DNA of 62,530 nt from NCBI GenBank assembly GCA_031081675.1, contig JAVHLZ010000007.1, forward strand, positions 1 through 62,530. Reading direction: 5' to 3'. Numbering within the stretch: the first letter of the stretch is position 1; every line of letters starts with the position of its first letter. This document shows, piece by piece, positions 4,382-52,042 of the stretch. Position numbers and translations under genes: made by a program. The notes beneath the pieces were generated by a model that did not search any database, was not told the origin of the DNA, and saw only the letters and a list, made by a program, of their open reading frames with translations. This DNA is from Armatimonadota bacterium. Its GTDB lineage: Bacteria; Sysuimicrobiota; Sysuimicrobiia; Sysuimicrobiales; Kaftiobacteriaceae.

Positions 4382-4396
4382 GCACCCCGCCTCCCG

Positions 4397-4427
4397 GACC
4401 TCCGCCCGGGGCGGGCCGGGGGAGGTC
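4397..4427 (-). other. GC-rich hairpin between uvrC and ogt
   Basis: GACCTCC (4397-4403) pairs with GGAGGTC (4421-4427), and the interior is also self-complementary (CCCGG types). It sits 32 bp after the uvrC stop on the same strand and just before ogt. It could slow polymerase, but it has no T-run. Confidence 0.35.
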
Positions 4428-4463
4428 TCACATGGCTATTCTTCTGGCTCTGTTGTCCTCCCC

Positions 4464-34082: not shown

Positions 34083-34185
34083 GCTTCCGGCCTCCTTCGT
34101 CTGTCCCGTGGCATTGTGATCTGCCGTCGCCCCGCGTGGTGCGCCCTCGTCCGCTCCTCCGGCCACCACCCCCTCTCCCCCCGCC

Positions 34186-35220: not shown

Positions 35221-35309
35221 GCGTCCCTCCCCGATGGCGGCGCCGGCTCGCGCCTCTTCTCTATCATACAGGGAAATGTCACACCCATGGGAACGCCCGG
35301 CCCGCCCCG

Positions 35310-36344
35310 TCACCGGTAGCGGGAGGCGGCCAGGCCCGCGGCGGCCGCCGCCTTCTTCTCCTCCTCGGTGGCGTGCTCGCTGTGCAGGTAGCACCGGGAC
35401 GTGTGGTCCGGCCCCACCGGGTACTCGGGGGGATCGGCCTTCACGCAGATCTCCATGGCGAACGGGCACCGGGGAGCGAACGCGCATCCCGGCGGCAGGT
35501 CGATCAGGCTGGGCGGCTGGCCCTCGATGGGGATCAGCCGCTCCTTGCGCTCGTAGAGCTTGGGGATGGAGTGCAGCAGCCCCCAGGTGTACGGGTGCTG
35601 GGGGTTGTTGAAGATCTCCTCCACCGGCGCCCGCTCCACCGGCCGCCCGGCGTACATCACCACCACGTCGTCGCACATCTCGGCGACCACGCCCAGGTTG
35701 TGGGTGATCAGGATCACCGACATGTGGAACTCCTGCTGCAGCTCGCGGATCAGGTCCAGGATCTGGGCCTGGATGGTCACGTCCAGGGCCGTGGTGGGCT
35801 CGTCGGCGATGAGGATGCTGGGATTGCAGGACAGCGCCATGGCGATCATGACCCGCTGGCGCATCCCGCCGCTGAACTGGTGAGGATAGTCCCGCACCCG
35901 CTCCCGGGCCAGGGGGATGCGCACCTTCTCCAGCATCTCCACCGCCCGATCCCAGGCGTCCTTCTTGGACAGGCCCTGGTGCAGCATCACCGCCTCGGCG
36001 ATCTGCTCGCCGATGGTCAGGACCGGGTTGAGGGACGTCATGGGCTCCTGGAAGATCATGGCGATCCGGTTGCCGCGGATGCGCCGCATCTCCTCTTCGG
36101 ACAGGCGCAGCAGGTCCCGGCCCTCGAACAGGACCTGGCCCTCCACGATCTTGCCGGGCGGCTGGGGAATCAGGCGCATGATGGAAAGGGCGTGCACGCT
36201 CTTGCCGCACCCCGACTCGCCCACGATCCCCAGGGTCTCCCCCTTGCGCAGGTCGTAGGAGAGACCGTCCACCGCCTTGACCACACCTTCGTCGGTGTAG
36301 AAGTAGGTCTTCAGGTTGCGCACCGACAGCAGGACATCCGCCAT
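35310..36344 (-). CDS. Peptide/nickel ABC transporter ATPase, DppD/OppD type (system 1)
   Basis: Walker [11 protein letters not shown]-loop [15 protein letters not shown], signature [15 protein letters not shown], Walker [15 protein letters not shown], switch His in ITHNLGVV; C-terminal cysteines in [15 protein letters not shown]. 344 residues. ATG 36344 with GGGAGG upstream; the longer open frame above it is pyrimidine-repeat DNA and is not coding. The region holds three permease pairs and three binding proteins per such ATPase pair, so this motor may be shared. Confidence 0.94.
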
Positions 36345-36389
36345 CCGGTCCTCCCCGCGCTCACCGCATCGCTGACGCACCCGAGCGCG

Positions 36390-36430
36390 TTCCTTTCCTT
36401 CTTCCCTCGTCCTTCTTCCCTCTTCCTTCT
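36390..36430 (-). repeat. CTCTTCC-type pyrimidine tandem repeat (copy B)
   Basis: Imperfect TTCTTCC/CTCTTCC units in the 204-bp gap between the DppD-type gene and the binding protein at 36549. Nothing else of note is visible in this gap. Confidence 0.7.
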
Positions 36431-36548
36431 GTGGATCGTTGCACCGGTGAAATGTTGACCGGGGGTGCCGGACCGCCGACCCCCAGCCGATCCGGTCGCC
36501 AGACCCCGGACGCATCCTTTTTCGCCAGCGCGCCCCCTCTCCCTCCCC

Positions 36549-38207
36549 TCAACGGTCGGCCCACGCCCACTCCCAGGCGTTCCAGGGCAGGAAGGAGCCC
36601 ACCAGCCCCGTGGGGCGGATCCCCCGGATCTCCCGCCGGGCCGCGGTCAGCGACAGGCCGAAGTACAGGGGCAGGGACGGCAGGTCCTCGGCAAACACCT
36701 CCTGGTGCCGCCGCAGCAGGGCGGTCCGGCGGTCGGGGTCCAGCTCGGCGACCAGCTGTTCCATCAGCCGGTCGCTGTCGGGGTTGCGCCAGCCGGTCCG
36801 GTTGTTGCCCTCCCAGTTGTTGGCCGCCGAGGGGATCTGGCTGCTGTGGAACCGGTCGAAGGCGGTGGACTCGGGCGAAAAGACGCTGGTGTACATGGCC
36901 AGATGGGGGAACTGCCGGCGGGGGACGATGGTACCCAGGAAGACCGACGACGGCCGGTTGTCGATCCGCACCTCCACCCCCACCGCCCGCAGCTGCTCCC
37001 GGATCAGCTGCTGGACCTGCTCGCGGGCGGCGTGGCCGGCGGTGGTCATGAACACCAGTTCCAGCCGCCGCCCCTGGCCGTCCCGCAGGACGCCGTCCGG
37101 CCCGGGGGTGAACCCCGCCTCGGCCAGCAGGGCCCGGGCGCGCGCGGGGTCGTAGGGGTAGCGGCGGACCCGGGGGTTGTGGGCCGGGTGGCGGGGCGGC
37201 AGCCAGGAGTGGGCCACCGGCTGGCGGCCCCCGAACAGGGCGGCGGCGATCCCCTCCCGGTCGACGGCGTAGGCCAGCGCCTGGCGGACCCGCCGGTCGC
37301 GCAGCCACTCGTCGTCCAGGTTGAAGTCAATGCGCTCCCACCGCAGGGACTCGGTGTAGTGGGCCGCCATCCAGGGCGCCCGGCGCTCGACCTCGGCCAT
37401 CTGCTCCAGGCTGAGGTTGCCGATCTCGACGGCGTCCACCTGGCCGGCCAGGACGTTGGCCAGCAGGACGCTGCTGTCCAGGATGAACCGGAACACCAGG
37501 CGGCGGATCCGCGGGCGGCCGAGGGGCCAGCGGTCGGAGGCCTCCACCGTGATGTGGCTGCCGGGCACCCACTCCACGAACCGGTAGGGCCCGTTACCCA
37601 CCGGCGCCCGCCAGTACGGGTGCGCCCGCAGGGCCGCGGGGTCCTTCAGGTAGGCCGCCTCCAGCAGGTGGCGCGGGTAGACCACGTCGGTGCCGAAGGG
37701 CGACGAGCCGGCAAACGGCCACGGCTCGTTCCACGTGACCACCAGGGTGTACGGGTCGGCCGGGGTGGGGACCAGGACGTTGTCCACCTTGCGCAGGATG
37801 AACCGGCTGACCTGCGGCGTGCGGGGGTGGCGCAGCATCCCGTAGGTGAACCGGAAATCCAGGGCCGTCACGGGGCGGCCGTCGTGCCAGGTGAAGCCGC
37901 GGCGCAGCCGCCAGGTCACCCGCATCCGGCCGCCCGGCAGGACCTCCCAGTCGCCGTCCCCCACCCGGGGCAGCTTCTCCACCAGCACCGGCATCCGGAC
38001 CCACCGGTCGGTAAAAGGCGCCACGGCGGCCCACAGGACGTTGCCCACCACCGCCGAGGCGGACATGATGGAAAACTCCCCCAGCACGTCCGGCTCCTGG
38101 CCCATGCCGATGACCACCGTGTCGCGCGCCGGCGCGGCGGCTGCCCCCCCGAGGACGGCCGAGATCCCCAGCACCAGGACCCCGCACCCGCAGGCCACCT
38201 TCCTCAC
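36549..38207 (-). CDS. Peptide-type ABC substrate-binding protein, SBP_bac_5 family (system 2)
   Basis: 552 residues from GTG 38207, chosen because GGAGG lies 9 bp upstream and the signal peptide (VRKVACGCGVLVLGISAVLGG, cleaved near AAAAPA) starts there. No lipobox. Canonical motif order: RDTVVIGMGQEPDVL, RGFTWHDGRPVTALDFRFTYG, GNGPYRFVEW, VRQALAYAVDREGIAAALFGG, ARALLAEAGFTPG. Closely similar to the system 3 protein (RDTVVIGIQQEPDFL, same PYDPARARALL stretch), so the two are recent paralogues. The ligand is unknown. Confidence 0.92.
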   Translation of the reverse strand: MRKVACGCGVLVLGISAVLGGAAAAPARDTVVIGMGQEPDVLGEFSIMSASAVVGNVLWAAVAPFTDRWVRMPVLVEKLPRVGDGDWEVLPGGRMRVTWRLRRGFTWHDGRPVTALDFRFTYGMLRHPRTPQVSRFILRKVDNVLVPTPADPYTLVVTWNEPWPFAGSSPFGTDVVYPRHLLEAAYLKDPAALRAHPYWRAPVGNGPYRFVEWVPGSHITVEASDRWPLGRPRIRRLVFRFILDSSVLLANVLAGQVDAVEIGNLSLEQMAEVERRAPWMAAHYTESLRWERIDFNLDDEWLRDRRVRQALAYAVDREGIAAALFGGRQPVAHSWLPPRHPAHNPRVRRYPYDPARARALLAEAGFTPGPDGVLRDGQGRRLELVFMTTAGHAAREQVQQLIREQLRAVGVEVRIDNRPSSVFLGTIVPRRQFPHLAMYTSVFSPESTAFDRFHSSQIPSAANNWEGNNRTGWRNPDSDRLMEQLVAELDPDRRTALLRRHQEVFAEDLPSLPLYFGLSLTAARREIRGIRPTGLVGSFLPWNAWEWAWADR

Positions 38208-38230
38208 CCTGTCCCACCTCCACTCCTCGC

Positions 38231-38278
38231 CATCAACGCTCCCGCGCTCCAACGTTTCAACGCTTCACGTTCCTAACG
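38231..38278 (-). repeat. Low-complexity CAACGYTTC-like repeat upstream of binding protein 2
   Basis: Related units CATCAACGCT, CCAACGTTT, CAACGCTTC, CACGTTCCTAACG follow one another. On the transcript strand they read GCGTTGAAACGTTGG. It lies just upstream of the binding protein's ribosome binding site. It looks like a third, more degenerate short tandem repeat type. Confidence 0.4.
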
Positions 38279-38314
38279 CCCCGCCTTGACTGTGAACCTT
38301 CAACCCCCAACGGC

Positions 38315-39292
38315 CTACCGGTGCCACCGCGGGTCCAGGGCATCCCGCAGCCCGTCTCCCAGCAGGTTCAGACCCAGCACCGCCAGGGCGATGGCGCACC
38401 CGGGCGCCACCGCCAGCCAGGGGGCGGTCCACAGGGCGTCCTGGGCCCGCTGCAGCATGTTGCCCCACGACGCGGTCGGCGGAGCGATCCCCAGGCCCAG
38501 GTAGCTGAGGGCCGACTCGCTGAGGATGGCGTGGGCGGCCGCCAGGGTCGCCGCCACCGCCACGGGCCCGGCGGCGTGGGGCAGGACGTGGCGCATCAGC
38601 ACCCGCCCATCCGAGGCGCCCGACGCCCGCGCCGCTTCCACAAACGTCTCCTCCCGCACGGTCAGGACCTGCGCCCGCACCAGGCGGGCCACCGGGGGCC
38701 AGCCGAACGCGGCCAGGATCAGGACGACCTGGCCGGGCCCGCCTCCGGGCAGGAGAGCCGCCAGGATCAGGTACAGGGGGAGGGTCGGGATGGCCAGAAG
38801 GACGTCCACGGCCCGCATCAGGACCGCGTCCACCGCCCCCCCGTGGAAGGCCGCCAGCGCCCCCACGGCCGTGCCCGCCGCCGCAACGAGCAGCGCCACC
38901 CCATAGCCGACAGCGAGGGAGATCCGGCCGGCGTACAGCAGCCGGGACAGGACGTCCCGGCCCAGCTCGTCCGTTCCCAGCGGATGCCCCGGGCCCGGCG
39001 GCATCCACCGCTCGGGCAGCCGGGACCGGTCGGGAGGGGCCGGCGCCACCCAGGGGGCCAGCAGGGCCAGCGCCGTCAGCGCTCCCGCCACCACAGCCCC
39101 CGTCACCGCCAGGCGGTGGCGGCGCAGGCGGCGCAGCGCGAGCCGCCACGGAGGCGTCACACCCACCTGGCGCACCACGGGAGCGGGAGACCGGACGTGC
39201 CCGGGACGGAAGACCTGCGGCCCTCGGGTGCGCGGGGACGCCTCCCCGTTCTTCCACTCCACCGTGCCCACGGTCCCGCGCTCCACCATCAT
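38315..39292 (-). CDS. ABC peptide/nickel transporter permease, DppC type (system 2)
   Basis: 325 residues with a 50-residue cytoplasmic N-tail before TM1 (AVTGAVVAGALTALALLAPWVA). Core motifs GTDELGRDVLSRLLYAGRISL, EAARASGASDGRVLMRHVLPHAAGPV (EAA loop) and the end DALDPRWHR. ATG 39292 (ATGATG) follows the DppB stop by 6 bp. The gene lies between DppB type 2 and binding protein 2, all on one strand. Confidence 0.92.
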   Translation of the reverse strand: MMVERGTVGTVEWKNGEASPRTRGPQVFRPGHVRSPAPVVRQVGVTPPWRLALRRLRRHRLAVTGAVVAGALTALALLAPWVAPAPPDRSRLPERWMPPGPGHPLGTDELGRDVLSRLLYAGRISLAVGYGVALLVAAAGTAVGALAAFHGGAVDAVLMRAVDVLLAIPTLPLYLILAALLPGGGPGQVVLILAAFGWPPVARLVRAQVLTVREETFVEAARASGASDGRVLMRHVLPHAAGPVAVAATLAAAHAILSESALSYLGLGIAPPTASWGNMLQRAQDALWTAPWLAVAPGCAIALAVLGLNLLGDGLRDALDPRWHR

Positions 39293-39298
39293 CGGCGC

Positions 39299-40264
39299 TC
39301 ATCCGTACCGGATTCGCGGGTCCACCGCGGCGTAGGCCACGTCGGCGGCCAGGTTGGCGAGGACCGTGACCGCCGCCAGCAGCATCAGGACCGCCATGGC
39401 CACCGGGTAGTCGTGGCCCAGCACCGCCTGGTACAGCAGCAGTCCCATCCCCGGCCAGCTGAAGACCGTCTCGGCCACCACCGCCCCGTCCAGCAGACGC
39501 GGCACGGCCAGCGCCGCCAGGGTCACCAGCGGCAGCAGCGCATTGCGCAGGGCGTGGCGGCGCATCACCGCGCCGTCTGCCACCCCCTTGGCCCGGGCGG
39601 TGCGGATGTAGTCCTGCCCCAGAGCCTCCAGCACCCCGGCGCGGGTGTAGCGCGCCCACGCCGCCATCCCGCCGGCGGCCAGGACGACCGTGGGCAGGAC
39701 CAGGTGCCGCGCCCGGTCCGCCAGCGCCGGCAGGCCCGCCTCGACCCCCGGGGTCATCATCCCCCCGGCCGGCAGCCAGCGCAGCCACACCGCGAACGCC
39801 AGGATGGCCACGATCCCCAGCCAGAACACGGGAACGGAGAGGCCCGCCACCGACAGGCCGGTGGCGGCGTAGTCCCACGCCGAGCGCGGCCGGGCGGCGG
39901 CCAGAATCCCCAGCACCACGCCCCCCAGCACCCCCAGGGCGAACGCCGCCCCGGCCAGCTGCATGGTGGCCCCCAGGCGGCGGGCCACCAGGGTCGCCAC
40001 CGGCTCGCTGTAGGTCCGCGAGTATCCCAGGTCGCCCCTCACCACGCTGCGCAGCCACTTCAGGTAGCGCACCGGCAGAGGATCGTCCAACCCGTACTGG
40101 GCGCGCAACCGGGCCACGTCCTCGGGCAGCAGGTCCGGCCGCTGGGAGGCCAGGACCTCCAGCGGGTCTCCCGGCGTCGCCGCCAGGAGGGCGAAGAACA
40201 CCACCGACAGGCCCGCCAGGACCACCAGGCTCTGGACGAGGCGCCGGATGAGGTAGGAGATCAT
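39299..40264 (-). CDS. ABC peptide/nickel transporter permease, DppB type (system 2)
   Basis: 321 residues. MISYLIRRLVQSLVVLAGLSVVFF helix, LRAQYGLDDPLPVRYLKWLRSVVRGDLGYS-type loop, EAA loop RTARAKGVADGAVMRRHALRN, end DVAYAAVDPRIRYG. The sequence is close to the system 3 DppB type. Together with the similar binding proteins this points to tandem duplication of a cassette. Confidence 0.93.
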   Translation of the reverse strand: MISYLIRRLVQSLVVLAGLSVVFFALLAATPGDPLEVLASQRPDLLPEDVARLRAQYGLDDPLPVRYLKWLRSVVRGDLGYSRTYSEPVATLVARRLGATMQLAGAAFALGVLGGVVLGILAAARPRSAWDYAATGLSVAGLSVPVFWLGIVAILAFAVWLRWLPAGGMMTPGVEAGLPALADRARHLVLPTVVLAAGGMAAWARYTRAGVLEALGQDYIRTARAKGVADGAVMRRHALRNALLPLVTLAALAVPRLLDGAVVAETVFSWPGMGLLLYQAVLGHDYPVAMAVLMLLAAVTVLANLAADVAYAAVDPRIRYG

Positions 40265-40343
40265 GCCTCACTCACGGGGTTCGGGAACGCCGCGGCCGCC
40301 GTCCTCCTGCGCTCCCCCGGCCTGTGGTCCCGGGCGCCGCCCG

Positions 40344-41249
40344 TCAGATCTTCAGCCGGGGGTCGAGGGCGTCGCGCAGGCCGTCGCCGAAGAAGTTGAA
40401 GCACAGGACCGTGAGGAAGATCATCAGGCCGGGCCAGAAGGCCAGCCAGGGGTCGGTCCACAGGTAGCTCTGGGCGTTCTGCAGCATGTTGCCCCAGGAG
40501 GGGATGGGCGGCTGGATGCCCACCCCGAAGTAGGAGAGGGCGGCCTCGGTCAGGATGGCGCCCCCCACATCCAGGGTGGCGGCCACGATGATGGGCGCCA
40601 TGGCGTTGGGCAGCAGGTGGCGGAAGATGATGCGGGTCTCGCTGGCGCCCAGGGCCCGGGCGGCGTCGGCGAAGTCCTGGGTCTTCAGACGCAGGATTTC
40701 CCCCCGCACCAGCCGCGCCGCCACCGTCCACCCGAACAGGCCGATGATGACCACGATGGGCAGGATGCCTCCGCCAAAGTAGCGCCCCAGCAGCAGCAGG
40801 ACGCCGAAGACGGGGAGGGTGAGCACGATGTCGGTCAGGCGCATCAGGACGTTGTCCAGCAGGCCGCCGTAGTAGCCGGCCACCACCCCCACCAGGGTGC
40901 CCAGCGCCACCGCCGAGAAAGCCGCCGCGAACCCCACCACCAGCGACACCCGCCCGGCGTACAGCAGCCGGGTGAAGACGTCGTGGCCCAGGTCGTCGGT
41001 GCCCAACCAGTGCCGGCCGACAAACGGGGGGGCGAACCTGTTGGTGAGGTCGATCTGCTCGAACCGGTACGGCGCGATCCACGGGGCGAAGACGGCCGCC
41101 AGGATCAGCAGAGCGATGACCGCCAGCCCCCCCATGGCCAGCCGGTGGCGGCGCAGTCGCCGCCAGGCGATCTGCCAGTAGCCTTCGCCGGCGCGGGCGG
41201 CCTCAGCCGCGGCGGCCGCGGGCGCAAGGGTGACCGCGGGGCGGGCCAT
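40344..41249 (-). CDS. ABC peptide/nickel transporter permease, DppC type (system 3)
   Basis: 301 residues. TM1 MGGLAVIALLILAAVFAPWIA, GTDDLGHDVFTRLLYAGRVSLVV, EAA loop DAARALGASETRIIFRHLLPNAMAPI, end DALDPRLKI. ATG 41249 with GAGG a few bases before. 86 bp separate it from DppB type 3; I see no terminator in that gap. Confidence 0.93.
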   Translation of the reverse strand: MARPAVTLAPAAAAAEAARAGEGYWQIAWRRLRRHRLAMGGLAVIALLILAAVFAPWIAPYRFEQIDLTNRFAPPFVGRHWLGTDDLGHDVFTRLLYAGRVSLVVGFAAAFSAVALGTLVGVVAGYYGGLLDNVLMRLTDIVLTLPVFGVLLLLGRYFGGGILPIVVIIGLFGWTVAARLVRGEILRLKTQDFADAARALGASETRIIFRHLLPNAMAPIIVAATLDVGGAILTEAALSYFGVGIQPPIPSWGNMLQNAQSYLWTDPWLAFWPGLMIFLTVLCFNFFGDGLRDALDPRLKI

Positions 41250-41335
41250 GCCTCTACCCCCGTCCCGCCGGGGCGCGAGGGTGGGGAGGCCGGGACGGCA
41301 GGGACGGCTGCCGGACCCCGAGCGCCCACCCCCGG

Positions 41336-42331
41336 TCAGTCATACCGGATCCTCGGGTCGAGCACCGCATACGCCACGTCGGCCAGCAGGTTGAACACGA
41401 GGACCAGGACCGCCAGGAACATGAGCACGGCCTGGGCAGCCACGTAATCGCCGTTGAGGACCGACTCCACCAGCAGCCGCCCCACCCCGGGCCAGGCGAA
41501 CACGGTCTCGGTGATGGGGGCGCCGGCGAAGAGGTTGGCGATGGACAGGGCGATGATGGTGACCAGAGGGATCAGGGCGTTGCGCAGGGCGTGCTTGTTG
41601 ATCACCACCGGCTCCGCCAGTCCCTTGGCCCGGGCCGTCCGCACGTAGTCCTGGCGGATGACCTCCAGCATGCTGGACCGGGTGTAGCGGGTGTAGGTGG
41701 CCATGGACAGCAGCGCCAGCACGATGGACGGGAGGATCATGTAGCGCAGGCGGTCCAGGATGAACGGCAGCCCCGGCGGCACGCCCGGGGTGCTGATGCC
41801 GCCGGGCGGCAGCACCAGCCAGCCCAGCCCCGGGATGGCCGTCCAGGGGTGCCAGACGGCGAACACGTAGATGGCCATGATCCCGAACCAGAACACCGGG
41901 ATGCTGACCCCGAAGAACGTGAACGTGGTCGCCACGTAGTCCAAGAGGGAGTACTGGTGCAGGGCGGAGTAGATGCCCACCGGCACCGCCACGGTCACCG
42001 CCAGCACGAACGCCGTCACCGTCAGCCACAGGCTGTTGGCGATCCGGTCCCGCAGCAGGTCGGTCACCGGCTGCTTGTAGGTCCGGGAGAAGCCCAGATC
42101 GCCCTGCAGGGTGCGGCCCAGCCACTTCAGGTAGCGCACGTGGATGGGCTGGTCCAGGCCGTACAGGCGCTTCAGGCGCGCCACGTCCTCGGGCCGGACC
42201 CGGGGGTCGGAGGCGATCAGCAGGTCCACCGGATCCCCCGGCGCCAGGGTCAGCAGGGTGAACAGCAGCACGGAGATCCCCAGGGCGATGGGGACCATCT
42301 GGAGGATGCGCCGGAGGATGTACCGCTGCAC
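41336..42331 (-). CDS. ABC peptide/nickel transporter permease, DppB type (system 3)
   Basis: 331 residues. MQRYILRRILQMVPIALGISVLLF helix, LKRLYGLDQPIHVRYLKWLGRTLQGDLGFS-type loop, EAA loop RTARAKGLAEPVVINKHALRN, end DVAYAVLDPRIRYD. GTG start at 42331 without a clear ribosome binding site. Follows binding protein 3 by 56 bp. Confidence 0.93.
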   Translation of the reverse strand: MQRYILRRILQMVPIALGISVLLFTLLTLAPGDPVDLLIASDPRVRPEDVARLKRLYGLDQPIHVRYLKWLGRTLQGDLGFSRTYKQPVTDLLRDRIANSLWLTVTAFVLAVTVAVPVGIYSALHQYSLLDYVATTFTFFGVSIPVFWFGIMAIYVFAVWHPWTAIPGLGWLVLPPGGISTPGVPPGLPFILDRLRYMILPSIVLALLSMATYTRYTRSSMLEVIRQDYVRTARAKGLAEPVVINKHALRNALIPLVTIIALSIANLFAGAPITETVFAWPGVGRLLVESVLNGDYVAAQAVLMFLAVLVLVFNLLADVAYAVLDPRIRYD

Positions 42332-42387
42332 GGAGGATCACGGGGCCGGGGCGGGAGATCGAATCCCCCGCCCCGGCACCCCTCAGG

Positions 42388-44067
42388 TCACTGCCAGAAC
42401 CACCGGTGGGCGTTCCACGTCTCGTAGGTGCCGCTCAGCTGCACGGCGGTGAAGCCCTGCAGCCCCACCTTGGCGGCGGCGACCGACGCCCGGACGTACA
42501 GCGGCAGGGCCGGCAGGTCCCGGGCGAAGATCTGGGCGCTCTGCTGCAGCAGCCGGTTCCGGGCCGCCTCGTCCACCTCGCGGCTGGCGGCCTTGCACAC
42601 CCGGTCCATCTCGGGGTTCTTGTAGCCCGGGTAGTTCTGCCCGGCCCACCCGTTGGCCTCGGTGGGGATGCCGTCGGAGGTGTACAGCTGGTCGCAGTCG
42701 GAGGTGGGCGACATCACCCACGCGTACATGGCCAGGGCCTTGAACTTGCGCTGGTTGGTGATCTCGCCGAACAGGACCCGGGCCGGGAAGTTCTGGATGG
42801 TGATCTCGATGCCGACCTCCCGCAGGTTCTGCTGGATGATCTGCTCCACCTGCTCCCGCACCCGGTTGCCGGCGGTGGTGTTGATCTCCAAGGACAGGCG
42901 CTGGCCGGCGGCGTTGCGCATGATCCCGTCGGGGCCGGGGGTGAAGCCGGCCTCCTGGAGCAGCGCCCGGGCCCGCGCCGGGTCGTAGGGGTACTTCTGC
43001 ACGTTGTCGGTGTAGCCGGGGTGCCGCGGCGGCAGGTAGGTGTGGGAGACGGGCTGCTTGCCCTCAAACAGCTGCTGGGAGATGGCCTCCCGGTTGATGC
43101 CGTGGGCGATGGCCCGGCGCACCCGCACGTCCTGCAGCAGCGGGTTGTCCAGGTTGAAGTCGATGTGCTCCCAGATCAGGCCCGGCTCGAAGAACACCCG
43201 GAACCGGCCGGCGGCCTGCTTCTCCAGCTGCACCGCCTGGTCGAAGGAGATCCCGATGGTGCTGATGGCGTCGATGGCCCCCGACAGCATGTTGGCCACC
43301 AGGGCGTTGGTGTCGGGGATGAAGCGCCAGATGATGCGCCGGATCCGCGGCGTCCCGAAGAGGGGGTGGTTGGGCACCGCCTCCACCGTCAGGGACGCCC
43401 CCTTGCGCCACTCCACCAGCCGGTAGGCGCCGTCGCCGACGGTGATCCGGGGGTCGTTGCCGTACGGCGCCTCGTTGAGCTTGCTGGGGTTCTCCCGGTA
43501 GTACCGCTCCACCACGTGCCGGGGCAGGGCGCCGTACTCGGTGATGGTCAGGTTGGCGTAGGCGTAGCGCTCTTTCCAGTTCACCTGGATGTCCAGCCCC
43601 TCGGCGCCGCGGGTGCACAGGACGTTGGCGATGCGGTTGGTCAGGTCCCGCACCACCACCGGCACGTTCACGTTGCGGGCCACCGTGTGGCCGAAGACGT
43701 AGTCGGCGCAGGTCACGGGGCGCCCGTCATGCCAGTTGCGGGCCTTGAGCTTCCAGGTGAGGGTCATCCGGTCGCCGTCCAGCTTCCAGGTGCCGTCCCG
43801 GAGGTTGGGGATGTACTGGACGCCCTGGGCGAACAGCTTCCAGGTGTTGTCCCGCTCCACGTCGCTGACGAAGATGGTGTCCATGACGGAGACCGCCGCC
43901 GCCATCTCCGCGAACAGCGGGTTGAGGAAGTCGGGCTCCTGCTGGATACCGATGACGACGGTGTCCCGCCCGGCCGCCGGCTGCTGGGCCTGCACGGCCC
44001 CCGCCGGCCACAGGGTGATGGCTACCGCCGCCAGCAACAGGACCGCCTGCTGCCATCGCGCGCGCAT
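42388..44067 (-). CDS. Peptide-type ABC substrate-binding protein, SBP_bac_5 family (system 3)
   Basis: 559 residues. Signal peptide ending GAVQAQQ, no lipobox. Canonical order: [121 protein letters not shown] precedes ATG 44067. First transporter gene after the HTH regulator, 87 bp downstream of it, with a strong palindrome between. Confidence 0.93.
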   Translation of the reverse strand: MRARWQQAVLLLAAVAITLWPAGAVQAQQPAAGRDTVVIGIQQEPDFLNPLFAEMAAAVSVMDTIFVSDVERDNTWKLFAQGVQYIPNLRDGTWKLDGDRMTLTWKLKARNWHDGRPVTCADYVFGHTVARNVNVPVVVRDLTNRIANVLCTRGAEGLDIQVNWKERYAYANLTITEYGALPRHVVERYYRENPSKLNEAPYGNDPRITVGDGAYRLVEWRKGASLTVEAVPNHPLFGTPRIRRIIWRFIPDTNALVANMLSGAIDAISTIGISFDQAVQLEKQAAGRFRVFFEPGLIWEHIDFNLDNPLLQDVRVRRAIAHGINREAISQQLFEGKQPVSHTYLPPRHPGYTDNVQKYPYDPARARALLQEAGFTPGPDGIMRNAAGQRLSLEINTTAGNRVREQVEQIIQQNLREVGIEITIQNFPARVLFGEITNQRKFKALAMYAWVMSPTSDCDQLYTSDGIPTEANGWAGQNYPGYKNPEMDRVCKAASREVDEAARNRLLQQSAQIFARDLPALPLYVRASVAAAKVGLQGFTAVQLSGTYETWNAHRWFWQ

Positions 44068-44614: not shown

Positions 44615-44818
44615 CTACGGCCCCAGCCGGCGCCTGAGCAGCCCGGCGGCTCCCACCATACCCACCGCCAGTCCCGCCACCGCGACCCCGTAGGCCGCCA
44701 GGCCAAGTCCCAGGGAGGGGGGGATCCAGCGGAGGACCATCGCGAAGACCGTCACCCAGCCGACCGCCAGCAGCGCGGCTCCCGCAGCCACGAGGCGATG
44801 TGGGCGCTCCAGCCTCAC
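44615..44818 (-). CDS. Small two-helix membrane protein coupled to transporter system 4
   Basis: 67 residues, GTG at 44818 overlapping the stop of the DppF-type gene by GTGA. Two hydrophobic segments (about 10-32, LVAAGAALLAVGWVTVFAMVL; and 38-58, LGLAAYGVAVAGLAVGMVGAA) with a basic end LLRRRLGP. The length, stop overlap and clean hydrophobic pattern support a real gene. I recognise no family; an accessory of the importer is possible. Confidence 0.55.
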   Translation of the reverse strand: MRLERPHRLVAAGAALLAVGWVTVFAMVLRWIPPSLGLGLAAYGVAVAGLAVGMVGAAGLLRRRLGP

Positions 44819-45849
44819 CCCGTCCGATCCCCATCCCGGCGGCCGGGCACCGGAGCGGCAGGCACCGGCGCCACGGCGGGGGCGTACAGCCAGCAGGCGA
44901 CCCGGTGGGCGGGGTCGGGCTCCCAGAAGGCGGGGTCGCGGACCTCGCACACGCCCCGCACGATGCGGGGGCAGCGGGGGTGAAACCGGCAGCCCGCGGG
45001 AGGAGCCAGCAGGCTGGGAGGCTCCCCCGGCGGCACGTCCCGGAACCGGGCGGCGTTGTCCGGGTCGGGGTCGGGGATGGCCGCCAGCAGGGCCTGGGTA
45101 TAGGGATGCCGGGGCGACCGGATGAGCCGGTCCACCGGGGCGTCCTCCACGATCCGGCCCGCGTACATGACCAGCACCCTCTCGCAGAAGTACCGCACCG
45201 TGGACAGGTCGTGGGTGATGTAGATCACCCCCAGCCGGTAGCGGGCCTGCAGGGCCCGCAGCAGCTGCAGGATCTCCACCCGCACCGAGGCGTCCAGCAT
45301 GGAGACGGGCTCGTCGGCGACGAGCAGGTCCGGCCGCAGGATCAGCGCCCGCGCCACCACCAGCCGCTGCTGCTGCCCGCCGCTGAGCATGTGGGGGTAG
45401 CGGGGGAGAAAGTCGTCCACGGGGGTGAGCCCCACGTCCTCCAGGACCGTCCGCACCCGCTCCAGGCGCTCGCGGGCGGACGCCACGCCGTTGACCAGGA
45501 GCGGCTCTTCCAGAATCCGCCGGGCGGTCATGAACGGCGGCAGCGCCCCGTAGGGGTCCTGCTGGACGTACCCCACCCGCGCCCGGTACCACCGCAGGGC
45601 GGTGCCGTCCAGGGCGCGGCCGTCGAAGACGATCTCGCCCCGGGTGGGCGGGTGCAGGCCCAGCAGGGTGCGGGCCAGGGTGCTCTTGCCGCACCCGCTT
45701 TCGCCGACGATGGCCACCGCCTCGCCCCGGCGCAGCTCGAAGCTCACCCCGTCAACCGCCCGCACCACCCCGGCGCGCAGAAACCCCCACCGGCGCAGCT
45801 CGAACCACGTGTGCAGATCCCGGACCGACAGCAGCACGTTGTCGGACAT
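44815..45849 (-). CDS. Peptide/nickel ABC transporter ATPase, DppF/OppF type (system 4)
   Basis: 344 residues. Walker [11 protein letters not shown]-loop VGYVQQDPYGALPPFM, signature LSGGQQQRLVVARAL, Walker B LLVADEPVSMLDAS, His in ITHDLSTV; C-terminal cysteines GCRFHPRCPRIVRGVC. ATG 45849 with GAGGGG upstream; an ATG five codons earlier overlaps the DppD gene. Sequence differs clearly from the system 1 ATPase. Confidence 0.93.
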   Translation of the reverse strand: MSDNVLLSVRDLHTWFELRRWGFLRAGVVRAVDGVSFELRRGEAVAIVGESGCGKSTLARTLLGLHPPTRGEIVFDGRALDGTALRWYRARVGYVQQDPYGALPPFMTARRILEEPLLVNGVASARERLERVRTVLEDVGLTPVDDFLPRYPHMLSGGQQQRLVVARALILRPDLLVADEPVSMLDASVRVEILQLLRALQARYRLGVIYITHDLSTVRYFCERVLVMYAGRIVEDAPVDRLIRSPRHPYTQALLAAIPDPDPDNAARFRDVPPGEPPSLLAPPAGCRFHPRCPRIVRGVCEVRDPAFWEPDPAHRVACWLYAPAVAPVPAAPVPGRRDGDRTG

Positions 45850-45856
45850 GGCCCCC

Positions 45857-46849
45857 TCACGCATACAGCCAGCACCGGACCTGCCGGCCGTCCACCTGCA
45901 GCAGCGGCGGTTCCTCGCTGCACCGGCCGAACCGCGCCGGGCAGCGGTCGGCGAACCGGCAGCCGGCCGGCGGACGGACCAGGCTGGGGGGTCGGCCGGG
46001 AATGGCCGCCAGGGCCTTCTCCTCCCGCAGGGCGGGGACGCTGGTCATCAACGCCCGGCTGTAGGGGTGCAGCGGCTCCCGGTAGAACTGGCCCGCGGTG
46101 CTGACCTCCACCACCTGGCCGGCGTACATGACCGCGGCGTCGTCGGCCAGCTCGCTGCTGGTGGCGATGTCGTGGGTCACCAGCAGGAAGGTCACGCCCA
46201 TCTCCTTCTTGACGGCCTTCAGCACGTTCAGCACCGCCGCCTGGGTCAGCACGTCCAGCGCCGAGGTGGGCTCGTCCAGGATGATCAGGTCGGGCACCAT
46301 GATCAGGGCCATGGCCAGGGCCACCCGCTGGCGCATGCCCCCGCTGAGCTCGAAGGGATACCGCTCCACGAAGTCCAGCGGCACCCCCACCTGCCGGAAG
46401 ACGTCCAGGACCGCCCGGCGGGCGTCGGCGGCCGTCTTCGCCCGGCCGTGCACCAGCAGGGGCTCGGCCACCTGGTCTCCCACCGGCAGGACGGGGTTGA
46501 GGGCGTTCATGGCCGCCTGGGGGACCAGGGCGATCCGGACCCACCGGATCTCCCGGCGGAACTGGTCCTCGGGCAGCGCCATGATGTCCTGACCGTCCAG
46601 CCACACCCGCCCCGCATAGGTGTGGACGTTGCGGGGCAGCAGGCGCAGGATGGCCCGCACCAGCGAGGACTTGCCGCACCCGCTCTCTCCCACGATGACC
46701 AGGCTGCGGCCCCGCCGGACCACCAGGTCCACTCCGTCCACCGCCTGCACCGGCCCCCGGTGGGTGCGGAAGTACAGCCGCAGGTCCTCGGTGCGCAGCA
46801 GCGACGGGACGGACGGGGCGGTCGGAGGTCTGCGCTCGTCCACGGTCAC
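45857..46849 (-). CDS. Peptide/nickel ABC transporter ATPase, DppD/OppD type (system 4)
   Basis: 330 residues. Walker [11 protein letters not shown]-loop IALVPQAAMNALNPVL, signature [15 protein letters not shown], Walker B LIILDEPTSALDVL, His in VTHDIATS; C-terminal cysteines GCRFADRCPARFGRC. The GTG start overlaps the permease stop by GTGA. Confidence 0.93.
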   Translation of the reverse strand: MTVDERRPPTAPSVPSLLRTEDLRLYFRTHRGPVQAVDGVDLVVRRGRSLVIVGESGCGKSSLVRAILRLLPRNVHTYAGRVWLDGQDIMALPEDQFRREIRWVRIALVPQAAMNALNPVLPVGDQVAEPLLVHGRAKTAADARRAVLDVFRQVGVPLDFVERYPFELSGGMRQRVALAMALIMVPDLIILDEPTSALDVLTQAAVLNVLKAVKKEMGVTFLLVTHDIATSSELADDAAVMYAGQVVEVSTAGQFYREPLHPYSRALMTSVPALREEKALAAIPGRPPSLVRPPAGCRFADRCPARFGRCSEEPPLLQVDGRQVRCWLYA

Positions 46850-48174
46850 ATCTCCCGCAGGCGCGGGTTGAAGATGCGGTCCAGGGCGTAGCCCAGCATG
46901 GTGAACGCCAGGCCGCTGAGCATGAGCAGCGCCGCCGGCTGCAGGACCCAGTAGTAGTGGCCCGTGTACAGGGCTCCCTGGCGGTAGGCGTCCTCCAGGA
47001 CCTTGCCCCAGGTGGGCAGGACCGGGTCGCCCAGGCCCAGCACCGCCAGGGTCGCCTCCAGGAAGACGAACGCGGGAATCAGGGTGACGAACTGGGGGAT
47101 CAGCACGGGGATGGCCCGGGGGATCATGTAGGTGAACACCATGCGCAGGCCCCGGACCCCGTAGGCGCGGGCGGCCTCAATGTAGGGAGTCTCCTTCACC
47201 TGCAGGAACAGGGCCCGGTAGGTCTTGATCCCCGCTCCGAACACCCCCAGCAGGATCACCGCGCCCAGGATGGCCCAGATGCTGCGGGAGTACAGGGTCC
47301 CGATCATGATGAGGATGGGCAGCACCGGCAGGATCAGGTTCACCTCGGTGATCCGCTGGATCAGCCCGTCCACCCACCCCCCGTACCACACGCCGACGGC
47401 GGCGATGATGAGGGTGCTGACCGTGGACCCCACCGCCGCCAGCAGCCCGAACGCCAGGGCGACGGGTGTGCCCCACAGCAGCGCCACCGTCAGGTCGCGG
47501 CGCTGGTGGTCGGTGCCGGCGATCCCGTAGACCTCCCCGTAGACCACCAGCCGCGCGTCCAGCCGCGCCTCCGGCTCGAACAGGAAGGCGCTGACCTCCA
47601 ACGCGTAGCGCCCGGGCCGGGCCTGGCCCGGGCGGGCGGGGTCGGCAAAGAGCACCGCCTCCGGGGGACCGCCCAGCTGCTGGCGCAGGTCCGGGGTGGC
47701 CGACATGCGGTAGGCGTACCGCCGGCGGTCCACGGTGAGCTCCGCCAGGGGGATCTGCCGGCCGTCGGGGAACCGCCAGGCCAGGGCCACGTGGGGAGCG
47801 CGCTCGCTGAACTCCGCCTCCAGGAATGCCGACAGCTCCGGCGGCGGGGTCTGGTAGGGATACGCGAAGGCCAGATCGGCGGTCATTTGGCGGACGCCGC
47901 CGCCCAGGTCGTCCTGGCGGCGCAACGCCCGGCGGCTGTCCACCACGATGGTGGCCGCCCGCCGGCGCGTCCCGGGAATCCAGTTGGTCCACGCCGGCCA
48001 GGCGTTGCGGGGGACGTCCAGCCACAGGTCCTCCCCGCCCTGCCACAGGCGGACCGCCTCGGGCAGAGGCAGCCGGACCGCCGCGTACACCGACAGCAGC
48101 ACCAGCAGCCCGATGATGGCCAGGCCGGCCACCGCCGCGGGGATGCGGCGGATCTCGGCCAGAGCGTCCCTCAC
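46846..48174 (-). CDS. DppC-type permease with a large extracytoplasmic insertion (system 4)
   Basis: 442 residues, about 140 more than the usual DppC. After TM1 (about 13-33) comes a soluble stretch of roughly 195 residues (about 35-228) before the BPD_transp_1 core begins at LTVALLWGTPVALAFGLLAAVG. The core has the EAA loop EAARAYGVRGLRMVFTYMIPRAIPV and the end DRIFNPRLREM. The insertion faces outward, contains YAYRMSATPDLRQQL and RYALEVSAFLFEPEARL, and is unlike the short loop of relatives. GTG start overlaps the DppB stop (GTGA). It could interact with the atypical binding protein at 49374-51872. Confidence 0.88.
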   Translation of the reverse strand: MRDALAEIRRIPAAVAGLAIIGLLVLLSVYAAVRLPLPEAVRLWQGGEDLWLDVPRNAWPAWTNWIPGTRRRAATIVVDSRRALRRQDDLGGGVRQMTADLAFAYPYQTPPPELSAFLEAEFSERAPHVALAWRFPDGRQIPLAELTVDRRRYAYRMSATPDLRQQLGGPPEAVLFADPARPGQARPGRYALEVSAFLFEPEARLDARLVVYGEVYGIAGTDHQRRDLTVALLWGTPVALAFGLLAAVGSTVSTLIIAAVGVWYGGWVDGLIQRITEVNLILPVLPILIMIGTLYSRSIWAILGAVILLGVFGAGIKTYRALFLQVKETPYIEAARAYGVRGLRMVFTYMIPRAIPVLIPQFVTLIPAFVFLEATLAVLGLGDPVLPTWGKVLEDAYRQGALYTGHYYWVLQPAALLMLSGLAFTMLGYALDRIFNPRLREM

Positions 48175-49289
48175 CGCCGCTCCTCCCCGCCCACCTTCAC
48201 CCGGGGGTCCACCACCGCGTAGACGATGTCCAGGACAAAGACGGTCAGGGCCAGCAGGTAGGCGTAGATGATGGTGACCCCCACGATGACCGGGGTGTCA
48301 AACGCCCCGATGGCCTGGTACAGGGCCCGGCCCAGCCCCGGCCAGGTGAACACCGTCTCCAGGACGATGGCGCCGGTCCACGCGCCGATCAGGCCCAGGG
48401 CGAAGCTGGTGATGATGGTGGGCAGAGTGGGGCGCAGGATGTACCGGCGCTCGATCATCGCGGGCGGCAGCCCCTTGGCCTGGGCCATCTCCACGTAGTC
48501 TTCGCTGCTGAAGATGAGGAAGAACGTCCGCCACGAGTACACCGCCAGAAAGATGGTGCTGGCCCACAGGGCGGCGGTGGGAAGGATCATGTGCTTGAGC
48601 ACGCTGAGCGCGTAGCGCACCGGGTGCTCGGGTGGCGGGGCGTCCACCATGCCGCCGAACGGCAGCACCCGCAGCAGGGCGGCGAAGATGAGGATGAGGA
48701 AGATGCCGTAAAACCACGCCGGGGCCGCCGAGGTGGGCGCCAGGGCGATGATCAGCCGGTCCGCCCGGCTGCCGTACCGGCGGGACAGCGACAGCGCCGC
48801 CACGACCGACGTGACGAACAGGAGGACCTGGGCCGTGACGAACAGCAGCAGGGTCGGCGGCAGCCGGTCCAGGATGATGTTGCGGACCAGGCGCGAGCCG
48901 GTGTCGCTGGTGGTGTGCTCGGCGAACCCCAGCCGCAGCAGCAGCGCCTCCCGCAGGAAGGTCACGCTGCGCACCAGGAACGGCCGGTCCAGCCCCAGCC
49001 GCTGCTCCTCCAGCCGCACCAGCTGCTCGACAAGCCGCTGGCGTTCTTCCGGAGGCCGCATCCGCATCTGGGGGTCCAGCAGCACCTGCAGGGAGACCTG
49101 CTCGCGGATCTCGGCGCGCTTGATCCGGTCCACGTACCCGCCCATGTTGGCCACCAGGATCGTCAGGTAGACGCCGGCCACCACCGTCAGGAACAGGGCC
49201 AGCAGGCGGGTGCCCGCATAGGTGGCCACCCGCGCCAGGGTGCCGGCCGCCCTCGTCCTGGGGACCGCGGGAACGACGGCCTGGGCCAT
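48171..49289 (-). CDS. DppB-type permease with extended first periplasmic loop (system 4)
   Basis: 372 residues. A 27-residue N-tail precedes TM1 (LLALFLTVVAGVYLTILVANMG). The first outer loop is enlarged (about 50-150), with a charged coiled-coil-like part (EERQRLVEQLVRLEEQRLG) before the usual LDRPFLVR. Core EAA-like loop EMAQAKGLPPAMIERRYILRPTLPTI and end DIVYAVVDPRVKVGG are conserved. ATG 49289. Confidence 0.9.
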   Translation of the reverse strand: MAQAVVPAVPRTRAAGTLARVATYAGTRLLALFLTVVAGVYLTILVANMGGYVDRIKRAEIREQVSLQVLLDPQMRMRPPEERQRLVEQLVRLEEQRLGLDRPFLVRSVTFLREALLLRLGFAEHTTSDTGSRLVRNIILDRLPPTLLLFVTAQVLLFVTSVVAALSLSRRYGSRADRLIIALAPTSAAPAWFYGIFLILIFAALLRVLPFGGMVDAPPPEHPVRYALSVLKHMILPTAALWASTIFLAVYSWRTFFLIFSSEDYVEMAQAKGLPPAMIERRYILRPTLPTIITSFALGLIGAWTGAIVLETVFTWPGLGRALYQAIGAFDTPVIVGVTIIYAYLLALTVFVLDIVYAVVDPRVKVGGEERR

Positions 49290-49373: not shown

Positions 49374-51872
49374 TCACGGCAGGGTGGTGAAGCTCAGGCT
49401 GCTGAAGGCGGGGATGCTCACCACCTTGGAGACCACCACCACCTCCAGGCGGTTGGAGCCCGGGGCCAACCGGGCCGTGGTGGCGGCGGGCAGGACCACC
49501 CTCCACAGGTCCCCCGCCCGCTGGGCGGCCCCCTGGGCCGCCAGCTGTCCCCGGGCGTCGAACAGCAGGTACTTGACCTCGTCGATCTCCGCCGCCGGGT
49601 AGGGCTGGTCCCGGAAGGTGATGCGCACCTCAAACGCCGCCTCGGTGCCCACCTTCACCGAGCGCGGACCGCTGGTGGACACCACCGGGATCTTGGGCTC
49701 GCCAAAACGCAGCCACTTGGTGGAGGGGTCGGGGAAGCGCGGGAACCGCCGCAGCTCCACGATCTTCTCCACCGGGGACACCCGCTGGATCTGGAACGGC
49801 CCCATCCCCACCCAGAAGTGGCCGCGGCCGGTGCGCCAGTGGGTCAGGAAGGTGTACCGCTGCCGGGCCTCCTCCGGGCTGATCACCGCCCCCAGGGTGG
49901 GCGCGTAGGGAATGTAGTTTTCGGCCCGGGCGGCTTCCAGCTGCCGGTCCAGGACCGCCAGCGTGGGCCCGGCCACGTAGTTGAGGTGCTCCACCTTCCG
50001 CTTGGTGGACTTGTCCCGGCTGAACGCGGCCTGGCCGGCCGCCTCGGCCCGGATCCCCAGGCCCACCGCATGCCAGGCGCCGGGGCCGAAGCCGTAGTTG
50101 GGCATGAAAGCCTCGGCGGCAGTGGAGGCGACCAGCTCGGCGTCGATCTGCCAGGTGTCGGTGTAGTACTCGGCCACCAGCGGGTCCTTCGAGACGATGC
50201 GGAACCCGCGGAAGGTCTCCTGGAACGACTCAAACGAGGGCACCACCGACTCGTCGAAGATGGCGCTCTCCTTCTTGGCCCGGTCAAAGCCCAGGATCAT
50301 CCCCAGCATGATGTCGCCGAGGGACAGGCGGCTGCCGTCGTGCCACTGGACCTTGCGGAACAGGTCCCGTTCGAAGTACACGACCGTCTTCACGTTGGCC
50401 GCCAGGCCCTGGGGGTGCTTCTCGCCCACCGTGATCCACCGCTGGGCCCGGGCATCCCAGTCGATGTAGGCGTCGGGGGGTACGGGGATCCGCGGCGCGA
50501 ACCGCAGGGTCACCCAGTCCAGCGTCCTGGTGACCGGCAGGCCCTGGCGGACGGTCACCTCCGCCCGCTCCACCCGCTGGGGGTGGAACAGGCCGGTGTA
50601 GGGGTCGGGGATGGTGGCCCAGTCCTGGGTGGCGCGGATCAGCGCCTGGTCGAAGATCCAGTTGGACCCGCCCACCGGGTTCCAGGGCTGGGTGAGGATG
50701 CTGGGGAGGGCGATCTTCATCGTCCCGCCGACCCGGTCCCGGTAGCGGAGGGTGTACGGCCACAGCCGCGCCCCCGAGTACCCCGCCGACAGGTCGGCCA
50801 CCAGCTCCACCTCCGCCCGCCGCGGCCAGATGGAGGTCCGGGTGACCAGCCACACCCGCACCGAGTCCTTCAGGGCCAGCTCCAGCGCCGTGGCCATCAT
50901 CCGCCGGCGCTCCTCCACCGAGCGGAACTTGCGCTGGGCCAGCGCCTCGGCGATGCGGTCGAACTCGGGGTCGGGCTTGTAGGCCTGCCACAGGGGCTCG
51001 GTCAGGCCGCGCCTGGTGTAGAAGAAGTCGAAGTTGTCGGCCTCGTCCCGGCTGATGAGGGTGGTGATCCACCCGCCGGTGTACAGGTGCCAGCGTCCCT
51101 CGGCGGGGTCCCCGCCGATCCACAGGGGCGCCAGGTCCCGGGAGGTCCCGTAGCGGCGCTCCACGGTGAACCCCAGGCCCTCCAGCAGCCCGGCGATGTA
51201 GTCGCCGATCCGGCGGCGCTCGTCCTCGGTGCGGATCAGGAAGGTCAGGGTCACCGGCGCTCCCCGGAACTGCCACTTGCCGCCCACCAGCGTGGCGCCC
51301 AGCTTCTGCATCTCCTCGGTGATGACGGCGCGGGCGCGCTCGGGGTTGGGCGCGTACGCCAGCTCCAGCCGCCGGGCGACGTCGGCCAGGCGGGCGTAGT
51401 CGGGGAAGACGGTGGCGATGGGGAAATACCGGGGCGAGCCCAGACCGCCCATGATCTCGCTGGCGATGTACCGGCGGTCAATGAGCCAGTTCAGCGCCTC
51501 CCGGATCCGGGGCACGGCGAACGGGTTGAGCCTGTCGGTGTTGGGAAAGACCGGGCCCACCGGGTTGAGGGTCAGTTCGTGGTAGAGGCCGTAGGAGGTC
51601 GCCGACGTCAGCCCCCGCAGACGCTCCAGGCGCGTCCGCTGCTCGGGGTTGGAGGTGCCGGAAAACCACGCCTGGATGTCGTTGGCCTCCAGCCGGGTGA
51701 TGGCCGAGGCGTCGCTGGGCTCCTCCACCGCCAGGACCACGTCCACCCACGCCCCCACCCGGGCCTGGGCGCCGGTCCCGGCCGGCAGGGTGGCCACCAG
51801 GACCAGGGCCGCCAGCGCGGCCGGGAGGGCCCGGAGGAACGGGACGGCATCCCTGCGCGTCCGAACGACCAT
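49374..51872 (-). CDS. Circularly permuted SBP_bac_5-type substrate-binding protein (system 4)
   Basis: 832 residues; relatives have 500-600. Signal peptide about 1-36 (no lipobox). Residues 44-380 match what is normally the later part of the fold: VDVVLAVEEPSDASAITRLEAND, RIREALNWLIDRRYIASEIMGG (122-143), NPERARAVITEEMQKLGA (176-193) and GGWITTLISRDEADNF. Residues about 383-722 then match the normal start: TMKIALPSILTQPWNPVG, VQWHDGSRLSLGDIMLG (508-524) and GMGPFQIQRVSPVEKIV (689-705). The last 100 residues look like an Ig-type beta-sandwich. The junction falls between the GPF strand and the following strand of the canonical fold, so this is a permutation and not a scrambled fusion. GGAGG precedes ATG 51872. 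The ligand is unknown. Confidence 0.85.
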   Translation of the reverse strand: MVVRTRRDAVPFLRALPAALAALVLVATLPAGTGAQARVGAWVDVVLAVEEPSDASAITRLEANDIQAWFSGTSNPEQRTRLERLRGLTSATSYGLYHELTLNPVGPVFPNTDRLNPFAVPRIREALNWLIDRRYIASEIMGGLGSPRYFPIATVFPDYARLADVARRLELAYAPNPERARAVITEEMQKLGATLVGGKWQFRGAPVTLTFLIRTEDERRRIGDYIAGLLEGLGFTVERRYGTSRDLAPLWIGGDPAEGRWHLYTGGWITTLISRDEADNFDFFYTRRGLTEPLWQAYKPDPEFDRIAEALAQRKFRSVEERRRMMATALELALKDSVRVWLVTRTSIWPRRAEVELVADLSAGYSGARLWPYTLRYRDRVGGTMKIALPSILTQPWNPVGGSNWIFDQALIRATQDWATIPDPYTGLFHPQRVERAEVTVRQGLPVTRTLDWVTLRFAPRIPVPPDAYIDWDARAQRWITVGEKHPQGLAANVKTVVYFERDLFRKVQWHDGSRLSLGDIMLGMILGFDRAKKESAIFDESVVPSFESFQETFRGFRIVSKDPLVAEYYTDTWQIDAELVASTAAEAFMPNYGFGPGAWHAVGLGIRAEAAGQAAFSRDKSTKRKVEHLNYVAGPTLAVLDRQLEAARAENYIPYAPTLGAVISPEEARQRYTFLTHWRTGRGHFWVGMGPFQIQRVSPVEKIVELRRFPRFPDPSTKWLRFGEPKIPVVSTSGPRSVKVGTEAAFEVRITFRDQPYPAAEIDEVKYLLFDARGQLAAQGAAQRAGDLWRVVLPAATTARLAPGSNRLEVVVVSKVVSIPAFSSLSFTTLP

Positions 51873-52042
51873 GTCTCTCCCTCCTCGCTCCGGGGCCCGA
51901 TCGCCACTGTGCCGGGCTCCCCGGACATGGCTACCGCACACGGGTCACGGGAGTATCATTCACCGATTTTGGCGGACGCCGGGGGCGACTCCTGCCCGGG
52001 GGGCGCCTGCCGCCGCGCCGGCGGATCCCCTCAGACAACCAC

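Follow-up and report, generated by a model that had tools for sequence, protein, structure and literature searches.

The window, by which we mean the whole stretch of 62,530 nucleotides that was analysed, carries on its minus strand the gene of what we interpret as a circularly permuted substrate-binding protein (hereafter cpSBP), with homologues of OppB, OppC, OppD and OppF downstream of it on the same strand. The features on which the argument rests are these:

51880..51885 (-): ribosome-binding site AGGAGG, 7 nt before the cpSBP ATG (ATG at 51872), read directly
49374..51872 (-): cpSBP gene, 832 aa + stop, assigned from its translation, PF00496 and orthologues
51762..51872 (-): predicted Sec signal peptide, residues 1-37, judged by eye (charged start, hydrophobic core, AQA end)
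50730..51761 (-): residues 38-381, the canonical second half (end of lobe I, lobe II, return), now N-terminal
51471..51509 (-): motif RIREALNWLIDRR, residues 122-134 (canonical RxALxxAIDR), motif read
51030..51077 (-): motif GGWITTLISRDEADNF, residues 266-281 (canonical GWxxDYxDPxNF), motif read
49704..50729 (-): residues 382-723, the canonical first half (N-terminal strand, WHDG, GPF), now C-terminal
50670..50723 (-): TMKIALPSILTQPWNPVG, residues 384-401, the former N-terminal strand, motif read
50307..50351 (-): VQWHDGSRLSLGDIM, residues 508-522, the WHDG motif, motif read
49779..49808 (-): GMGPFQIQRV, residues 689-698, the GPF motif, motif read
49377..49703 (-): accessory C-terminal beta domain, residues 724-832, from AF2 strands and its absence from many orthologues
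48171..49289 (-): OppB-type permease, 372 aa (PF00528)
46846..48174 (-): OppC-type permease, 442 aa (PF00528 at 256-440), its permease domain preceded by an additional stretch of about 150 residues
45857..46849 (-): OppD-type ATPase (PF00005 and PF08352)
44815..45864 (-): OppF-type ATPase (PF00005 and PF08352)

Three canonical SBP_bac_5 genes adjoin this operon (32301-34169, 36549-38252 and 42388-44067, in the region 32301-44067 on the minus strand), with further Opp-type permeases beside them, and across the 2.3 Mb of the source genome there are 13 matches to canonical SBP_bac_5.

The canonical order of this family, from N- to C-terminus, is WHDG, GPF, IDR, GW..NF. This order is not that of the cpSBP, in which IDR and GW..NF come before WHDG and GPF, and because the motif order differs we read the protein as a permuted SBP_bac_5 variant and not as a canonical member. 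The earlier note had proposed as much, and on reading the sequence again we found all five of its elements (IDR, GW..NF, the start-of-fold strand, WHDG and GPF) in the order it gave. Four of them, including the start-of-fold segment at 384-401, lie exactly where it had put them, whereas GGWITTLISRDEADNF occupies residues 266-281, not 267-282, an error of one residue. In the region of this last motif, G230, W231, R238, D239, N243 and F244 are invariant in a profile of nine orthologues (A1). The TMKIALPSILTQPWNPVG strand is now joined to the former C-terminus, with the join at mature residue 344. Analysis of the sequence confirms the predicted product as an exported SBP_bac_5 (OppA/DppA-type) protein with its two halves in swapped order. 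A lipobox was read at the position of the signal peptide in the orthologue at locus L016 and in other cpSBP orthologues.

A search with PF00496 had been suggested as a check. In the window protein it matched the N-terminal half alone (residues 52-272 against profile positions 157-350 of 368, 65 bits with a cut-off of 32.4), and because only the second half of the family is covered in this way, the first half was to be expected either absent or elsewhere. In L016, by contrast, both halves were found swapped within one frame (148-362, then 26-151), as they are in a paralogue from the same genome. Rotation in silico merges the PF00496 pieces into a single match (26-361 in L016, 27-351 in the orthologue L013) with a gain of 9-11 bits, and extends the match of the window protein (P0001) across the join to 114-350.

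A PDB search with the single window sequence matched the archaeal OppA 7FI3 as two swapped pieces. When profiles were used, A1 aligned with 7FI3 as 420-680 to 64-311 and 66-235 to 390-570 (E=1.4e-43), and the A1 family rotated at the proposed join (A3) gave a single collinear match, 80-576 to 68-570, running through the artificial junction (E=2e-46). Homology thus extends across both halves of the SBP_bac_5 fold, A3 spanning about 500 residues of 7FI3. A profile of the C-terminal half (A2) had 7FI3 as its sole significant PDB match (residues 63-309, E=1.6e-16). The assignment of residues 38-381 rests on the PF00496 positions 157-350 and on 7FI3 358-570 in the PDB search, and this segment aligns with residues 235-519 of canonical paralogues with an hhalign probability of 99.4-99.6. 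As a control, hhalign comparisons with canonical paralogues were repeated for re-cuts of the profile at 17 regularly spaced positions. The best score, 239, was obtained for cuts at 320-440, which bracket residue 344; the native order scored 183 and the worst re-cut 138. All full-length orthologues gave either one match to the native profile or two swapped matches to the rotated one, and nearly all canonical paralogues scored better with the rotated than with the native model. Every order-sensitive test (profiles, Pfam, rotation, re-cutting) therefore supports the circular permutation inferred earlier, and all of them place the breakpoint where it had been predicted, directly after the GPF/DYW strand of lobe I. 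Two other candidates were rejected: a tandem duplication of complete lobes, since every segment is present once, and a chance order of short motifs, which the profile tests rule out.

The AF2 model of the mature protein, built with nine sequences, is of middling confidence (pLDDT 69, pTM 0.65). Its best Foldseek matches are 7FI3 (the OppA of Thermococcus kodakarensis, TkOppA), then OppA, NikA and DppA chains, each over about half of the length (TMq 0.28); the matches are of half length because the aligner keeps chain order and sees only about half the fold at once. Modelled on its own, the C-terminal half has 7FI3 as its only significant fold match (E=5.4e-8, TMq 0.53; next E 0.06). The best matches by fold and by sequence are cluster C chains, and not chains of the Type I / cluster B sugar-binding fold. 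According to the earlier note, the permutation would be refuted by two complete canonical lobes or by the lack of an SBP_bac_5 fold; neither is the case, as the segments are single and the top structural matches, TkOppA first, are of the SBP_bac_5 class. The C-terminal beta domain that it had postulated is also predicted by AF2, all-beta and with good confidence (strands at 684-793, pLDDT mostly 84-92), and residues 724-832 matched no Pfam family. Many Bipolaricaulota orthologues of 716-745 aa lack this domain, ending at about profile position 682, where it would start, so we consider it an optional accessory outside the core.

The genomic context meets the expectation for an SBP_bac_5 protein, with an export signal (by eye) and an OppBCDF-type operon of two BPD permeases and two oligo_HPY ATPases. 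OppB is syntenic with the cpSBP in L009-L011 and L013-L016, and the order cpSBP-OppB-OppC-OppD-OppF is retained across phyla in the loci that extend far enough. OppC is unusually built: its residue 219 aligns with DppC residue 64, frames of similar length (446-503 aa) occur in the other cpSBP operons examined, and a PDB search returned only ordinary DppC/OppC permeases, leaving the insert of about 150 residues unmatched. The permuted SBP may dock on this insert (in 46846-48174, minus strand).

Homologues of the same order are not confined to this genome. They were found as orthologues in 11 of 43 genomes of the window's own phylum (E<=1e-30). With A1, homologues were detected in the phyla to which L013 and L016 belong: in 61 of 100 genomes for the former, labelled Bipolaricaulota (E<=1e-12), and in 22 of 251 for the latter, labelled Chloroflexota (E<=1e-15). 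The labels of these two whole samples rest on the L013 and L016 records. The cpSBPs of the window's phylum form one clade, and since the whole tree follows phyla with few exceptions, the permutation appears to be old. One exception is L014, from a Thermoanaerobaculia metagenome-assembled genome, which falls within the Bipolaricaulota clade and is absent from the other genomes of a 99-genome sample; it was probably mis-binned or transferred. No cpSBP homologue was found on plasmids or viral contigs. We infer that the change went from the canonical order to the first permuted order (cp1), because the canonical order is widely spread. Canonical-order close relatives were sought as recent ancestors with the rotated profile in 400 Chloroflexota and 100 Bipolaricaulota genomes; this gave only split (permuted) matches and one twice-permuted protein, in genome G654, to which we return below. 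Some cpSBPs of 975-984 aa (L098 in G331; G604:C4:9578-11944) have an insert of about 90 aa near profile position 453. The locus L110 has two tandem copies, and a Chloroflexota genome (G064) has three tandem cpSBP genes (L103:3984-15408, minus strand). In genome G094 the cpSBP lies in two overlapping frames before OppBCDF (L104:2686-4179 and 4043-5149, plus strand; profile 3-442 and 439-792), which could be a frameshift, a sequencing error or a true fission.

A second, divergent family occurs in relatives of the window's phylum (L047:7047-9773 and L048:7273-10833, both plus strand; L049, L050 and L051). The two members tested had no Pfam match. The family is collinear with the cpSBP over 659 columns (hhalign probability 100) and has the permutation in common with it. 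Its lobe II is shortened, and it adjoins other ATPases and not an obvious Opp operon. In L108:3981-7226 (minus strand) a matrixin-like peptidase domain (M10, HEIGHTLGLDD; PF00413, 26.2 bits, cut-off 24) precedes a cpSBP in the same chain, giving an exported peptidase/binding-protein fusion.

The G654 protein was flagged by its long continuous match to the rotated profile, and proved to be permuted again. The proteins with this order (cp2) are located as follows:

L107:6858-9122 (+): cp2 protein P0002, genome G654
L112, L119, L123:7726-10116 (-), L115: further cp2 relatives; with L107, mostly in OppBCDF operons

P0002 consists of a signal peptide and lipobox, then cp-profile positions 167-682, then 3-160 and the stop, and its gene is followed by OppB, OppC, OppD and OppF. 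Homologues of cp2 order, 38-46% identical to P0002, are present in three further genomes: G671 (two, one of them incomplete), G685 and G686. The second break is observed within the lobe-II beta-hairpin, at GKWxY|GxPVxL, so that the N-terminus, in several proteins with a lipid anchor, is attached to lobe II. In cp1 proteins the PF00496 match starts near profile position 149, at the N-terminus; in cp2 proteins it is C-terminal and runs from position 100-115 across the cp1 break to end at 274-278. These limits support both breaks independently.

The cp2 group had been defined from gene order in advance of the trees. In these its members are placed among cp1 proteins, with well-supported branches that force at least three changes. 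A single cp2 clade is rejected by the AU test for the whole protein (p=1e-57), the moved segment (p=0.019) and the rest (p=1e-4), and the trees of moved segment and remainder agree on the pairings L110/L113 and L109/L115. The clearest pair is formed by the cp2 protein of L123 (whose gene is also that of L113) and the cp1 protein of L110: although their circular order differs, they share 53-54% identity over each of the two segments, as against only 36-40% between L123 and the other cp2 proteins. Trees and identities together point to a repeated second re-cutting (or reversal) at the same loop. We lean, with some reserve, towards the view that circular permutation is recurrent in this family, one old lobe-I rotation over at least three phyla having been followed by at least three changes to the same lobe-II break in one Chloroflexota order, and, as part of the same view, that through these changes the N-terminal anchor, once on lobe I, comes to sit on lobe II, with operon and partners unchanged.

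As for function, we think that the cpSBP serves a type I ABC importer of five parts as its secreted binding protein, with a circularly permuted cluster C fold (probability about 0.88). Most likely it is a working Venus-flytrap binding protein for the OppBCDF importer, its structure, ligand binding and transport being inferred. The ligand is probably a peptide, which is our best guess by inference, favoured by the pentapeptide bound in 7FI3, the OppBCDF set and the peptidase fusion of L108. In canonical OppA/DppA an aspartate forms a salt bridge with the N-terminus of the peptide. This residue, of the D436 type, is one that we take to follow the GW motif normally in DppA/OppA. It is not at its usual place in the cpSBP (GWITT...), and because it is missing from there the ligand may not be a peptide; in DppA, D436 pairs with the amino end of the peptide (PMC12136057).

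Other readings have to be weighed against this one. The cpSBP could be a secreted SBP-derived protein that no longer takes part in transport, a sensor or receptor, in spite of its operon. The divergent second family, in which little of the SBP signal is left and no obvious Opp operon surrounds the gene, lends this some colour, but OppB, OppC, OppD and OppF are tightly kept beside the cpSBP in L009-L011, L013, L015, L104 and L105, and we regard the idea as unlikely. We are slightly more sceptical of domain shuffling, that is, a fusion of halves from two different binding-protein genes without any rotation. The much greater divergence of the C-terminal half from canonical bacterial SBPs could be cited in its favour; however, each half alone picks 7FI3 as its nearest solved relative, far ahead of others and with the long pre-WHDG insert included, and together the halves rebuild most of 7FI3 in one collinear match. 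Finally, nearly all cpSBP sequences come from metagenome-assembled genomes, and L014, lone among the 99 genomes searched, is probably mis-binned, so that an assembly, binning or frame artefact has to be considered. The same rotated order is nevertheless kept in more than 60 homologous proteins from three phyla, mostly with signal peptide, stop and operon. With same-order orthologues in three phyla and a recurrent operon, assembly error is excluded for the family, and we give an artefact virtually no weight.

If the cpSBP is indeed a permuted importer component, its origin and action may be pictured as follows. A short linker at roughly mature residue 344 would have connected the old N- and C-termini, and the chain would have been opened anew in lobe I, behind the GPF...DYW strand. 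The signal peptide, in whose place relatives have a lipobox or a membrane anchor, would be attached at the new N-terminal site, and the beta domain placed at the new C-terminus in some lineages. The lobes would close on the ligand, most likely a peptide, as in an ordinary Venus flytrap; the protein would dock on OppBC, and on ATP binding by OppDF the ligand would be set free to enter the channel. As for origin, which is likewise inferred, the gene was probably duplicated in tandem and fused in frame, after which copy one lost its first half and copy two its second. In this way the gene may later have been re-cut several times at the lobe-II hairpin in one Chloroflexota order. The tandem copies of L110 and L103 would be raw material for such duplication and trimming; neither remnants of duplicated halves around cp2 genes nor fused-dimer intermediates were found.

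Beyond the earlier note, the permutation turns out to be widespread, conserved with its operon and re-permuted in relatives, the beta domain to be optional, and a divergent family to exist. It explains why annotation finds only half of the cpSBPs and nothing in the divergent family. Since native homologues exist in each of three circular orders (canonical, cp1 and cp2), this large and old family, linked to its operon, permits direct tests of how permutation arises, which loops accept new termini and whether the place of the tether affects docking; natural cut points in an OppA-type scaffold should also be useful for sensor design.

Among known systems, the nearest by sequence and fold is TkOppA (7FI3), which has the same fold segments, the long pre-WHDG insert and the GKWxFNGxPV hairpin; unlike the cpSBP, it is archaeal, has the canonical chain order and, from its PDB title, was crystallised with a bound pentapeptide. 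With the OppA/DppA/NikA family at large (PF00496, cluster C) the cpSBP shares the IDR, GW...NF, WHDG and GPF motifs, the OppBCDF operon and the signal peptide, and it differs in its rotated order, long inserts, extra C-terminal beta domain and longer OppC. A literature search, mostly without subscription papers, yielded no published case of a permuted OppA-class protein, and on the evidence of the chain order as read from the genes the cpSBP is a new circularly permuted variant of SBP_bac_5. The literature searched offers very few natural permutations of ABC binding proteins, the one clear structural case being in another fold class: TpMglB-2 (Tp0684) of Treponema pallidum, a circularly permuted cluster B glucose-binding lipoprotein that still binds ligand and closes (PMC4990184). 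Like the cpSBP, it is an ABC binding protein that has been circularly permuted in nature, with the cut in the N-lobe, and domain shuffling has been raised as an alternative there too; unlike the cpSBP it has a Type I / cluster B sugar fold, another cut site and an unrelated sequence. We know of no report of a second permutation in TpMglB-2. The cpSBP family, in comparison, is a cluster C family that occurs in several phyla, and it has been re-permuted.
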